A stretch of 23,001 nt of DNA from positions 1 to 23,001 of the IMG/VR virus record IMGVR_UViG_3300012954_000092; one strand, written 5' to 3'. The stretch comes from a virus. A program made the position numbers and the translations under genes. A model generated the notes under the pieces. It was not told where the DNA came from, did no database searches, and saw only the letters and a list, made by a program, of their open reading frames with translations. Numbering within the stretch: position 1 is the first letter of the stretch; each line of letters opens with the position of its first letter. Below are positions 6,037 to 23,001 of this stretch, piece after piece.

Positions 6037-7032
6037 ATGAACTTGCAATCTACAATCTTAACAGCAATTAGTGGAAGCACTAAAAAGACTCCTAGTGGTT
6101 GGCATACAATAAACTGTCCAATGTGTACCAAGCAAGGACACACAAGACCAGACAAAAGGCATAGAGGTGGTTTTAAGTTTAGTGACGTAGTGAGCTATCA
6201 CTGTTTTAATTGCAACTACAAGGCTTCTTTTACTCCTGGAAGATTAATTGGAAGAAAGTTGCAAACTTTACTTGTTGAAATTGGAGTGAGTGAACAGAAA
6301 GTAAAAGAACTCCAATTTGAAGCAATGAAATTAAAAGATGCTGATATTGAAATTGGTAAAAAGTATGAAAGCGTAACGGAATTTAAAACTAGACAGTTGC
6401 CAAAAGGTGCTAGGCTATTAAGAGATATTGTCAATGATGATAATCCACCTGCTGATGCATTGTTTGTTTACAAATACATAATGGATAGAGATTTAGAATT
6501 TTACAAAGACTTTTACTGGAGTCCTGATCCATACATGAAGATCAATAAAAGACTTCTTGTTCCTTTTATGGCTAAAGGAGAAATAGTAGGATACACGGGC
6601 AGAGTAATTGAAGATATTCCAAATGTACCAAAGTATTACAGTGATGTACAACCTGGATACATTTTTAATATTGATAATTTACATACTGATAGAAAGTATG
6701 TTATAATAACAGAAGGAGTGTTAGATGCATTATCTATAAACGCAGTAAGTTCATTAGGTAATAAATTAACACAAGGTCAAATCGATCTAATAAATGCTAC
6801 AGGAAAAACAATAATAGTTTGTCCTGACAGAGACAAGTCGGGTAGTAATTTAATTGATGTGGCCGTTGAAAACAACTGGATGGTCAGTTTCCCCAAATGG
6901 GGATCTGGCATTAAAGACTGTGCCGACGCAGTTAAACAATATGGAAGATTGTATACTTTGAAATCTGTTATAGATAGTGCGGTTTCGAACAAAGCAAAAA
7001 TTCAAGTTTATAAAAAAATTGGAGTAGCATAA
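6037..7032 (+). CDS. 61: DNA primase (T4 gp61-like)
   Basis: Synthesises RNA primers for lagging-strand replication with the gp41 helicase. The 331 residues are near the T4 gp61 length (342). An N-terminal zinc ribbon is shown by CPMC (C27, C30) and CFNC (C56, C59). The TOPRIM core follows: ITEGVLDAL with E226, and CPDRDKSGS with D264 and D266, the expected acidic metal-binding residues. The reading frame extends upstream to GTG 6022, but that codon lies on the -10 box, so ATG 6037 is preferred. The stop TAA overlaps the ATG of the ClpP gene by one base. Gp41 lies 1.3 kb downstream with its own promoter of the same design. Confidence 0.93.
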   Translation: MNLQSTILTAISGSTKKTPSGWHTINCPMCTKQGHTRPDKRHRGGFKFSDVVSYHCFNCNYKASFTPGRLIGRKLQTLLVEIGVSEQKVKELQFEAMKLKDADIEIGKKYESVTEFKTRQLPKGARLLRDIVNDDNPPADALFVYKYIMDRDLEFYKDFYWSPDPYMKINKRLLVPFMAKGEIVGYTGRVIEDIPNVPKYYSDVQPGYIFNIDNLHTDRKYVIITEGVLDALSINAVSSLGNKLTQGQIDLINATGKTIIVCPDRDKSGSNLIDVAVENNWMVSFPKWGSGIKDCADAVKQYGRLYTLKSVIDSAVSNKAKIQVYKKIGVA

Positions 7033-7634
7033 TGAAAACAGATATGAATAATAAGAAAACAACGCAGGCACAGATGGCCAAACCTCCTGTACAACCAGGA
7101 CAATTAATGTACGAGAGTGGAATAATTTATTTTAGCGATCACTTTGATAGCACAACAACAAAACCAATTATTAACATGATCATTGAAAAAAACTTACTAC
7201 CACAGAGAGAAAGACCGAAAGAACTAACTTTAGTAATCAACTCTCCAGGAGGACAAGTTCACAGTGCATTTGCCTTAATAGATACTATGAAAGGATCTGC
7301 TATACCTGTAAAAACAATAGGATTAGGAATGATTGCCAGTTGTGGTATATTGACTTTCATGTCGGGAACAAAAGGCAGAAGATTTATAACACCAAACACG
7401 TCAATCTTATCACACCAATACAGTTGGGGTAGTGCAGGTAAAGAACATGAACTATTTGCAAGGGTGAGAGAATTTGAATTAAGCACAGAAAGAATGATAG
7501 ACCACTACAAAAAATGTACTGGGATGTCAGAAAAGAAAATCAGAGAAGTACTATTACCAGCAGAGGACGTTTGGTTAAGTGCCAAAGAAGCAGTTAAGTA
7601 CGGTATCGCTGATAAGATAGTTTCAACATACTAA
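7032..7634 (+). CDS. clpP: ClpP-like serine protease
   Basis: A 200-residue homologue of the proteolytic chamber subunit ClpP. The oxyanion motif INSPGG is at 69-74, the nucleophile is S103 in MIASCG, the catalytic histidine is H128 in SILSHQ, and the acid is D179 in AEDVWLSAKEAVKYGIAD, in the expected order and spacing. The triad is complete, so it should be active. The N-terminal 25 residues are polar and low in structure and could be a propeptide. There is no partner ATPase (ClpX or ClpA) in the window, so a host ATPase would be needed unless one lies elsewhere. It overlaps the primase stop by one base. A role in virion maturation is possible, but the phage tmRNA at 22.7 kb suggests degradation of tagged proteins. 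Confidence 0.9.
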   Translation: MKTDMNNKKTTQAQMAKPPVQPGQLMYESGIIYFSDHFDSTTTKPIINMIIEKNLLPQRERPKELTLVINSPGGQVHSAFALIDTMKGSAIPVKTIGLGMIASCGILTFMSGTKGRRFITPNTSILSHQYSWGSAGKEHELFARVREFELSTERMIDHYKKCTGMSEKKIREVLLPAEDVWLSAKEAVKYGIADKIVSTY

Positions 7635-15935: not shown

Positions 15936-17444
15936 ATGACAACAACATTTGTAAGACTTAAAAATCGTAGAGGAAACAAAGCCGATTTGCCAAAGCCGTT
16001 AGCGGAAGGTGAATTAGGTTTTGCTACTGATACAAGAGAATTATATATAGGTGGTGGTAATCAAAGTTCAAAGAATCGTATGGTTCAGGTAGGTGATTAC
16101 TTAAACTCACAAGTATCAACACAGAGTGACTTAGACAATAGAATAATAACTTTTACTTTATCAGGAACAGAAGATTTTAAAGGTAATGGTGTAGACGCAT
16201 TATCAACTGTTCTTAATAACGGTGTTGCTTTAAGTTTTCCTACAGCAGGAAAGACGTCAACAGCAAATACAACAGACTATCAAGTTACTAAATTTAACGT
16301 AAATGGTATGCCTACTACAATGGCAACTGACAGTTACGTTGTTAGTACAAGTGCGCCTAGCACACTTAGAATTAATTTTACAAATAACAATGTACCAGAA
16401 TCAAACTCAGTGATAGTAGTTTCTAAATGGACAGAGGCAGAAGTCATGACTGCGATATCAGGTGCTATTCCATCAATAACAGCAAACGTGGCAGATGCAA
16501 ACAACGATGTCTATGTTGATTATTCTACAGGAACTGGATTTATTGATATAACTGACGAACACACGTACATAGCACTTTCAGGTCAACCGTCAGCATCAAG
16601 TTATGGTACAATTACAGCAGGTGTCACAGTCACACAACAAAATAGTGGTGCAACAGGAACACTGAAGTACACAGTAACACCAGGTACGAGTCCAAATGTT
16701 TTTAGACTGTCATCTGTTTCGGGTACGTTTACTACTAACGCCGCTGATACTTTAGATGTTACGATACCAGCAGTTGCTACTTTCAGTACTGGTGTATATC
16801 CTGCAACAGTTTTTGATAACACAAGAGTAAATATTTCAACAACACTTGCTGGTTTGAATCCAATTGGAACAGCCGGTGTAAACGCAGGAAGTGGTACTCC
16901 TGCAAACGTGTTCATTAAAGGAACAGTTGCTAACCTAAGTTATCCTTCGGAGTCACTTGCAGTAAATGGTAATTTACTAATCTCGACAGATTCACCGAAA
17001 CAAGCAGAGCTAGTGTCAAACTTTTTAAATGTTTCACAAGGCTCAGGATTAACTACAGTAGCAAACAACATTAGAGTATACACACAAGACTCTAAACCAG
17101 AATTCAATAACAATATCTATGTCGGACCAAATTCATTGTTAAAGCAAACAATGAGTACTTCGACAACAGCAACTATCACAAGTTTTGATTTAACGGAAAC
17201 AAACACAATGTTTGTAGATTACAGTTTCAAATTTGGCACGGCTTTGGCTGTGGGTACTATCAGAATAATAAGCGATGGTACAGATGCTGACTATGTTGAT
17301 GATAGAACAGAAACAGATCCAACGAGTCATATAACTTTTAGTGCTGATGTTAACTCAGGTAAAGTTAGATTGCGTTACACAAACGGTAGTTCTACCCAAA
17401 ATGCAACTTTAAGTTACGTTGTAAAGAGGTGGAAAACTGATTAA
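15936..17444 (+). CDS. Tail-fibre-like virion protein, 502 aa
   Basis: The N-terminal 45 residues (VRLKNRRGNKADLPKPL, then AEGELGFATDTRELYIGGG) match the short attachment domain found at the start of many phage fibre and receptor-binding proteins, including the major tropism determinant. The rest is a Thr/Ser/Asn/Gly-rich beta protein; part of it (about 230-300) has alternating strands with YGTITAGVTVTQQNSGATG and similar patterns. Low lysine and absence of catalytic motifs fit a fibre shaft or adhesin that contacts the host surface. A strong hairpin follows the stop codon directly, so it probably ends its transcript. Confidence 0.8.
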   Translation: MTTTFVRLKNRRGNKADLPKPLAEGELGFATDTRELYIGGGNQSSKNRMVQVGDYLNSQVSTQSDLDNRIITFTLSGTEDFKGNGVDALSTVLNNGVALSFPTAGKTSTANTTDYQVTKFNVNGMPTTMATDSYVVSTSAPSTLRINFTNNNVPESNSVIVVSKWTEAEVMTAISGAIPSITANVADANNDVYVDYSTGTGFIDITDEHTYIALSGQPSASSYGTITAGVTVTQQNSGATGTLKYTVTPGTSPNVFRLSSVSGTFTTNAADTLDVTIPAVATFSTGVYPATVFDNTRVNISTTLAGLNPIGTAGVNAGSGTPANVFIKGTVANLSYPSESLAVNGNLLISTDSPKQAELVSNFLNVSQGSGLTTVANNIRVYTQDSKPEFNNNIYVGPNSLLKQTMSTSTTATITSFDLTETNTMFVDYSFKFGTALAVGTIRIISDGTDADYVDDRTETDPTSHITFSADVNSGKVRLRYTNGSSTQNATLSYVVKRWKTD

Positions 17445-21408: not shown

Positions 21409-21684
21409 ATGCCAGCGGTAACGAGATTAGGTGATTTATGTACAGGTCACGGACCATGTCCTCCGAGACCAAGTAATGGTGCGAGTGGAAATGTCTTCGC
21501 AGACAATATACCAGTACACAGACAATCAGACAGTTGGTCCGTTCACTGTGTCCATGGAAGTAACTTGGCCGCAGGATCAGGATCAGTGTTTGCAAATAAC
21601 TTACAATTAGGTAGAGTCGGTGATCCAGTTGCTTGTGGCAGTTCAGTACAAACAGGTTCAGGAACAGTTTTCGCAGGAGGATAA
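21409..21684 (+). CDS. PAAR-motif spike tip protein
   Basis: A 91-residue PAAR-family protein, which caps the membrane-piercing spike of contractile tails (T4 gp5.4 is the example). Features are the start MPAVTRLGD, the repeated GNVFADNIPVHRQSD, GSVFANNLQLGRVGD and GTVFAGG units that make the three-sided cone, and likely zinc ligands among H14, H46, H49 and C76. Length is normal for the family. The start lies five bases after a late motif and has no Shine-Dalgarno. The next gene follows with a strong ribosome site. Confidence 0.92.
   Translation: MPAVTRLGDLCTGHGPCPPRPSNGASGNVFADNIPVHRQSDSWSVHCVHGSNLAAGSGSVFANNLQLGRVGDPVACGSSVQTGSGTVFAGG
21675..21680 (+). promoter_or_regulatory. Strong Shine-Dalgarno deciding the start of the next gene
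   Basis: AGGAGG ends six bases before ATG 21687. It supports this ATG over an upstream in-frame start at 21633 that lies inside the PAAR gene. Confidence 0.8.
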
Positions 21685-22620: not shown

Positions 22621-22648
22621 TTGACAAAAGTTAATAAAGTTGTATAAT
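22621..22648 (+). promoter_or_regulatory. Sigma70-like promoter of the tmRNA gene
   Basis: TTGACA (22621-22626), 16-base spacer, perfect TATAAT (22643-22648). Best sigma70 match in the window. Transcription should start near 22655, just upstream of the acceptor piece. Confidence 0.8.
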
Positions 22649-22690
22649 TACACTTACAACGATGAAGGTGTCGTAATAGGTTATACGGAC

Positions 22691-22718
22691 GTCGGGGCAG
22701 TACCGACCACCTCCACCA
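22691..22718 (+). other. tmRNA acceptor piece: T-arm, acceptor strand and encoded CCA
   Basis: Five-bp T-stem, unusual seven-base T-loop GGCAGTA (not the usual TTCRA type), acceptor strand CACCTCC, discriminator A and CCA. The atypical T-loop is, to my knowledge, a trait of alphaproteobacterial two-piece tmRNAs. The upstream boundary of the mature piece is not known. Confidence 0.85.
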
Positions 22719-22837
22719 TAAACACACGAGGCTTTATGTCTAAGAAAGAATTTGATAGAATAAGGAATGCTTATATCAAAGTCTACGGCACTAGATGGAA
22801 AGAATATTTCGTGAAACATTACTGGTGTGTTTATGAC
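22719..22837 (+). other. tmRNA intervening segment, 119 nt
   Basis: Lies between the CCA end and the mature 5' end of the coding piece and should be cut out. Its ends, TAAACACAC (22719-22727) and GTGTGTTTA (22825-22833), are perfectly complementary and extend the acceptor stem, which would present both cleavage sites on one long stem. The enclosed loop carries a small ORF. Confidence 0.75.
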
Positions 22838-22867
22838 GGGGGTGAACCAGGATCGACGGTGATTTAA
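22736..22867 (+). CDS. Possible small ORF inside the tmRNA intervening segment, 43 aa
   Basis: ATG at 22736, preceded by GAGG four bases upstream. The product starts MSKKEFDRIRNAYIKVYG and is basic and aromatic-rich, with predicted helix. The last ten or so codons run into the tmRNA coding piece, so full translation would compete with tmRNA processing. Codon choice looks like that of phage genes, but the length is short and chance cannot be excluded. A longer in-frame version from TTG 22640 starts on the -10 box and is less likely. Confidence 0.3.
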   Translation: MSKKEFDRIRNAYIKVYGTRWKEYFVKHYWCVYDGGEPGSTVI

Positions 22868-23001
22868 AAGGCATTGGAGTTGTCGGTAGGTGACGACCGC
22901 AAATCGCACAAAATTATAAATGCAGATGAAAATCTAGCACTTGCGGCCTAATTCGTTAGGCTAACGGGGTTGGCAACTTACCTGGCAACAGAAAAGTTGC
23001 A
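22838..23001 (+). other. tmRNA coding piece with PK1 pseudoknot
   Basis: PK1: stem TTGTCGGT (22880-22887) with ACCGCAA (22896-22902), one bulged T; loop bases GTGACG (22890-22895) pair with CGCAC (22905-22909), one bulged A. Twelve bases then precede the resume codon. After the tag, GCCTAA/TTAGGC with a TTCG loop (22946-22961) forms helix 5 and holds the stop codon. GCAACTT/AAGTTGC (22973-22979 and 22994-23000) begins a further pseudoknot or helix at the window edge. Confidence 0.82.
22922..22951 (+). other. tmRNA tag reading frame, predicted tag ADENLALAA
   Basis: GCA at 22922 begins a frame encoding ADENLALAA and ending at TAA 22949-22951. The PK1-to-GCA gap of 12 bases is close to the 11 bases in E. 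coli tmRNA, which supports this resume codon. The end LALAA resembles the E. coli tag ANDENYALAA and is the type recognised by ClpX and ClpA for ClpP proteolysis. A resume codon a few triplets upstream cannot be excluded. Confidence 0.8.

Follow-up and report, generated by a model that had tools for sequence, protein, structure and literature searches.

What occupies the segment between the two pieces of a phage tmRNA, and what could it be for? The question arises at the end of a 23,001-nt stretch of viral DNA (positions 1 to 23,001 of IMG/VR record IMGVR_UViG_3300012954_000092; hereafter the window), where a preliminary description made from the letters alone had recognized a phage-encoded, circularly permuted two-piece tmRNA. 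That description overlooked a protein-coding open reading frame (ORF) between the two pieces, most of which lies in an intervening sequence (IVS) of 119 nt. By analogy with other permuted tmRNAs this IVS should be discarded on maturation and be absent from the mature two-piece molecule.

Identity of the tmRNA

The identification of the tmRNA itself is borne out by ARAGORN, by two covariance models and by covariation among relatives. ARAGORN calls a permuted tmRNA with the tag ADENLALAA*, in agreement with the LALAA-type tag frame proposed earlier, and the frame has its stop codon and a ClpXP-type Ala-Ala end. The Rfam models RF01849 (alpha_tmRNA; 131.9 bits, E = 3.3e-36, gathering threshold 50) and RF04321 (tmRNA_permuted; 128.2 bits, E = 3.5e-25, gathering threshold 47) both match far above threshold. 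The acceptor stem GGGGGTG/CACCTCC pairs across the two pieces at 7/7 positions, including the G3-U pair, and the strong promoter attributed to the locus agrees with the consensus at 12/12 positions (Table 1); a TATAAT box likewise stands 5' of several related tmRNAs. The region also folds better than 100/100 shuffled sequences (z = -4.7). The window ends at or just short of the 3' end of the tmRNA gene, which is completed in contig L045 (99.5% identical over 6244 nt) and there followed by two further genes. The piece boundaries given in the preliminary description, 22718 and 22838, are exactly right, and by analogy with other permuted tmRNAs the transcript would be processed into two mature pieces at these positions.

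Table 1. Features of the tmRNA locus at the end of the window.
Feature	Position	Strand	Basis
Promoter TTGACA-16 nt-TATAAT, just 5' of the acceptor piece	22621..22648	+	consensus matches
Whole permuted two-piece tmRNA	22656 to about 22996	+	ARAGORN, RF01849, RF04321
tmRNA acceptor piece	22656..22718	+	ARAGORN, RF01849, RF04321, T-stem covariation
T-arm: stem GTCGG/CCGAC, loop GGCAGTA	22691-22707	+	sequence
Acceptor 3' strand CACCTCC, then ACCA	22708-22714; ACCA up to 22718	+	sequence
IVS-closing stem, 5' strand CAUAAACACAC	22717..22727	+	fold; near-constant among phage relatives
IVS, with most of the nested ORF inside	22719..22837	+	both covariance models place it between CCA and the acceptor 5' strand
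Shine-Dalgarno sequence GAGG, 4 nt ahead of the ATG	22728..22731	+	sequence; 77 IMG/VR contigs have SD-ATG right behind the stem
Nested small ORF, family A, MSKKEFDRIRNAYIKVYGTRWKEYFVKHYWCVYDGGEPGSTVI*	22736..22867	+	translation, homologues, purifying selection
IVS-closing stem, 3' strand GUGUGUUUAUG	22825..22835	+	fold
tmRNA coding piece: acceptor 5' strand, PK1 region, tag frame, 3' hairpin	22838..22996	+	ARAGORN, RF01849, RF04321; 3' end completed by L045
Acceptor 5' strand GGGGGTG	22838-22844	+	pairs with CACCTCC, including the G3-U pair
Tag frame ADENLALAA + TAA	22922..22951	+	ARAGORN

Covariation of the acceptor stem and T-arm in related phages had been proposed as the check on this reading, and the pairs do change together. 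We compared 82 distinct related records, in whose anchoring pairing played no part. Each of the five T-stem positions is paired in 82/82, with as many as four pair types; at positions 1-2 of the stem, the most variable, shuffling predicts about 37/82 paired, against 82/82 observed. Acceptor pairs 4-6 covary across the same records and pair 3 is G-U in 82/82, while about 11 of the 82 records are one base out of register, which lowers the figures for acceptor pairs 1, 6 and 7. The positions of the stem that closes the IVS are near-invariant in this set, since that stem formed part of the search pattern.

The preliminary description had also taken the T-loop GGCAGTA as a sign of capture from a marine alphaproteobacterium. 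The same T-loop occurs in several of the SAR11-family ssrA genes that we could parse, 61/79 SAR11-family genomes carry a permuted tmRNA, and these sequence comparisons support an alphaproteobacterial ancestry. The locus is probably a functional, ordinary-looking permuted phage tmRNA with a strong promoter of its own, and it may, as the preliminary description proposed, replace or compete with host trans-translation. That a T4-like phage should carry a permuted tmRNA is less novel than was supposed: Melnitz, a Methylophilales phage, and its relatives have already been published, in a study that counts 53 two-piece tmRNAs in phage genomes, most of them aquatic (PMC9004378), and a further survey lists 79 bacteriophage tmRNA sequences (PMC11915505). 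The phage permuted tmRNA is known, the window adds a further member, and what appears to be new is the conserved protein gene in its IVS.

Elsewhere the window encodes a ClpP-like protease at 7032-7634 (+) (PF00574, E = 1.6e-35), an Mtd_N-domain protein at 15936-17444 and a PAAR-motif protein at 21409-21684. The protease and the ClpXP-type tag in one genome could form a matched tag-and-degrade pair, or could be a coincidence.

The closing stem and the nested reading frame

The IVS of the window is closed by an 11-bp stem (CAUAAACACAC/GUGUGUUUAUG). As the near-invariance noted above is not independent evidence, independent support for the stem as an RNA structure comes from contigs L491-L494, where it reads CATAATTAC/GTAATTATG, a compensatory change relative to the window. 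A host origin of the stem was considered and set aside: scanning genome contigs for CYCCACCATAARCAC gave no tmRNA-like locus among the approximately 80 matches listed, on which basis the stem looks phage-specific. A group I intron in the tmRNA gene was likewise rejected, as the T-loop is intact, the insert being placed after CCA and ahead of the coding piece, and the Rfam scan of the window returned no intron family.

Directly behind the 5' strand of the stem follow a Shine-Dalgarno (SD) sequence and the start of a 43-codon ORF, which we call family A. Its last codons and its stop lie within the coding piece of the tmRNA, the stop 28-30 nt in. Filling ORFs arise in shuffled versions of this IVS alone in 3% (ATG start) to 7% (any start) of cases, so the case for the window ORF rests on conservation and not on length. 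The same ORF is found within the IVSs of phage contigs L213 and L214, whose tmRNAs, both confirmed by the covariance models, have another acceptor stem (GGGCCTG/CAGGTCC). L400 has a free-standing member of the family, 34 codons long. Its ATG overlaps the stop codon of the gene before it, and that gene is homologous to the one 3' of the tmRNA in L045, L049 and L053; ARAGORN finds no tmRNA in L400. Between the window and L214 there are 3 synonymous and 0 nonsynonymous changes, and between the window and the free-standing copy 13/14.8 synonymous compared with 9/75.2 nonsynonymous sites are changed (p = 7e-6). These substitution patterns argue that family A is coding and under purifying selection, although just three distinct sequences represent it inside tmRNAs, and some of the signal could have built up before the gene was captured by the IVS. 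An AlphaFold2 model of the window ORF is a single helix over residues 3-33 (mean pLDDT 73, modest confidence) with a low-confidence unstructured tail from about where the tmRNA-encoded residues start; the first 33 or so residues are accordingly predicted to be the conserved helix.

Reading frames in the intervening sequences of related phages

How general the arrangement is was gauged from a sample blind to ORFs. Scanning IMG/VR for the stem alone yielded 94 parsed stem-type phage tmRNAs, of which 22/94 have an ORF filling the IVS; for IVSs of at least 100 nt the figure is 18/19, compared with an SD-led filling ORF in 0-17% of trials, depending on the family, when the IVSs are shuffled. A scan requiring SD and ATG returned 77 contigs, a few of them short IVSs matching by chance. 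Apart from Melnitz, all nested cases are from metagenomic contigs, and we left out the 588-nt 'IVS' of L133 as a parsing artefact with a second acceptor inside. In L146, L158, L195, L049, L101 and others the IVS is about 60-100 nt long, holds no convincing ORF and resembles structured inserts.

About ten small-ORF families, A to K, occupy the slot, two of which resemble Pfam families: family C is DUF2061-like (1.8e-4, just short of the Pfam cut-off) and family D matches DUF6356 (4e-11). Family B, of 77 aa, is predicted to form two helices in a model of modest confidence, and families E to K are short ORFs, among which E, I and K may make up one superfamily with the Melnitz type. Start codons lie about 17-26 nt past the CCA, with the SD and ATG directly behind the 5' strand of the stem. 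Most families have their stop 10-12 nt short of the coding piece. Families B-H, J and K stop inside the IVS, whereas in A, short I and the Melnitz type the ORF has no stop there and overlaps the acceptor stem, a read-through kept in all members seen. Selection is evident well beyond family A: pN/pS is 0.12-0.27 in eight IVS families, and the variable columns of nine families pooled are distributed 37/26/103 over codon positions 1/2/3 (p = 2e-14).

Carriers of such ORFs are under-annotated, since ARAGORN reports no tmRNA in L213, L214, L176, L357, L096, L345, L371 or L336 although the arms are present, and the Rfam models match all of L213, L214, L176, L096, L345, L371 and L336.

Sharing of cargo and free-standing copies

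In many pairs of phages the IVS is far more alike than the sequences on either side of it. In L142 and L185 the IVS is 99.2% identical compared with 53% for the coding piece, and in the window-type pair L045 and L214 the values are 96.6% and 62%; overall, tmRNAs with coding pieces that are 50-60% alike can share cargo of up to 99% identity. The local match blocks reach 32-34 nt or more beyond the 5' end of the IVS, entering the T-arm, and at least 23 nt into the coding piece. Note that these ends do not fix the endpoints of recombination, because they fall in conserved sequences. Gain and loss within the slot are suggested by comparing L336 and L376, whose 388-nt IVS holds two ORFs, family I and then family B, with L341, where an intact family I ORF is followed by a short remnant of family B.

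Several of the same families also exist outside the slot. Of 38 family B loci, 26/38 are IVS-borne and 12/38 free-standing, and members of D and E/I are found free-standing too, near tmRNAs. In L450, L451 and L452 a free-standing family B gene is followed by TAGTGTGATTATAAT or TAGTGTAATTACATT, which is like the 3' strand of the IVS stem, possibly as the relic of a lost tmRNA or as the source of a cassette.

Cultured phages and known systems

Among cultured phages, blastn with the window tmRNA region gave no match at 1e-5, and families A, B, C and D have no significant tblastn match. With other members of the set as queries, Melnitz and the Pelagibacter phage Mosig are matched. These are marine T4-like (Kyanoviridae) phages like the window type, with an IVS stem TAAACAC...GTGTTTATG. 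The two differ in their cargo. Melnitz (MZ577097, L436 1552-1716) has an IVS ORF, MFKWLSKTRLVVITRDYFRERNRKADAKIPKYLSGTR..., of a sequence different from that of the window, which runs into the coding piece and is conserved in IMG/VR relatives; in L491-L494 it takes a longer form with KHRLHTTKYEDLCK at the end, as in families E and I. The Mosig IVS is 44 nt long and no ORF fills it; at the same place its relative L119 has a 32-codon ORF. The tmRNA contains no annotated CDS in either of these two cultured records, and the text of PMC9004378, when searched, mentions neither an intervening sequence nor an ORF in it.

Compared with the alphaproteobacterial permuted tmRNA (RF01849; RF04321), the window shares the gene order, the acceptor stem across the pieces, the T-loop, the tag frame and scores above threshold. 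The difference lies in the spacer: in the SAR11 family, the host group, the ssrA IVS is 11-12 nt in the 7 genes measured (7/30 loci were parsed by pattern), and that of the window, at 119 nt, includes both a stem and a protein gene. Second genes within the part of a tmRNA gene that is removed have been described in two other forms. Group I intron tmRNA genes contain homing endonuclease genes (PMC11915505), so that protein genes lie in a removed segment as they do here, but these are self-splicing introns in the T-loop, while the window type uses the permutation spacer and its small-protein cargo includes none recognized as a nuclease. The permuted tmRNA of GCA-2688965 sp002688965 has a tRNA-Ala gene in its IVS (PMC11915505) and thus a second gene inside, as here, but this is one RNA gene in one metagenomic genome, whereas the phage IVSs carry a recurring set of protein genes. 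We found no earlier report of protein genes in the IVS of a permuted tmRNA in the open-licence literature.

A probable slot for small protein genes

The explanation that best accounts for these comparisons, and which we hold to be very probable, is that the IVS of these phage tmRNAs serves as a cargo slot in which small protein genes can be exchanged. It draws on the purifying selection, the ORFs filling long IVSs, the placement of SD and stop, the shared cargo, the free-standing homologues and the short IVS of the hosts. The IVS of a marine phage tmRNA precursor, usually a few cut-away nucleotides, would have been turned into a place where such genes can be kept. Judged from the sequence, the precursor, or the excised IVS, would be translated before or despite processing, with one early promoter serving both the tmRNA and the small protein. 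An insert in a discarded segment would leave tmRNA function unharmed, and the cargo would be exchanged by recombination in or near the conserved flanking acceptor, T-arm and stem sequences.

For the families without a stop in the IVS a more elaborate scheme can be drawn, in which cleavage removes the stop, the excised IVS becomes a nonstop mRNA and the tmRNA from the same precursor tags its product, limiting the small protein. The arfA gene of E. coli sets a precedent for regulation of this kind (PMC10107115), as RNase cleavage deprives its mRNA of the stop, and tmRNA controls that mRNA; arfA is not nested in a tmRNA gene, and the parallel to the read-through families is hypothetical. The position of the window stop inside the coding piece and the persistence of read-through in three ORF types would fit such a self-limiting circuit. 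However, it could not be general when most families stop inside the IVS; short I and the Melnitz type resemble versions without a former KHRxHTxKYEDLCK C-terminus, such that their read-through may be a by-product, and the read-through peptides GGELGST and GGEPGST are a mere translation of conserved tmRNA sequence. We regard the circuit as rather unlikely. It is also unlikely, by our estimate, that the precursor is a dual-output RNA with feedback, acting as mRNA first and then as the tmRNA that tags and clears the nonstop leftover in the read-through families, so that the RNA ends its own mRNA function.

Another possibility is that the ORFs are no more than debris: pieces of small genes from nearby, brought by illegitimate recombination into a segment where insertions do no harm, and translated seldom or never. 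The free-standing copies of the same families close to tmRNAs, and the family B remnant in L341, are what this would predict. The purifying selection among IVS-borne copies is not, nor is the retention of SD and start, with stops exactly at the stem, in about ten families, and we find the idea quite unlikely. The ORF might instead act like a leader: ribosomes crossing the IVS, and in the window also the acceptor stem, would delay the folding and processing of the tmRNA, whatever the sequence of the peptide. The overlap with the acceptor stem in the three read-through types is suggestive of this, but amino-acid sequences are conserved even in free-standing copies with no adjacent tmRNA, which makes such a timing switch very unlikely. 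Finally, the tmRNA could be a decoy, or dead, and the locus now mainly a promoter for the small gene. Phage DS6A has a form reduced to the tRNA-like domain, and such a molecule strongly inhibits tmRNA (PMC4131195); here, however, the tag frame, the G3-U pair, the T-loop and the acceptor pairing are intact and covarying, and this seems to us the least probable reading of all.

Implications

If the cargo slot is accepted as the best reading, it adds a set of small phage genes that are easily overlooked, as no CDS is annotated within the tmRNA in either of the two cultured records and several carriers escape ARAGORN. Their products would be candidate early phage proteins acting on the host, a suggestion that comes from the early-type promoter only. 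Since Melnitz, a cultured phage, has the arrangement, the expression of the small protein, the order of processing and any feedback between it and ribosome rescue are open to direct testing. More generally, a split RNA gene could offer the spacer that it discards as an exchangeable slot for protein genes.
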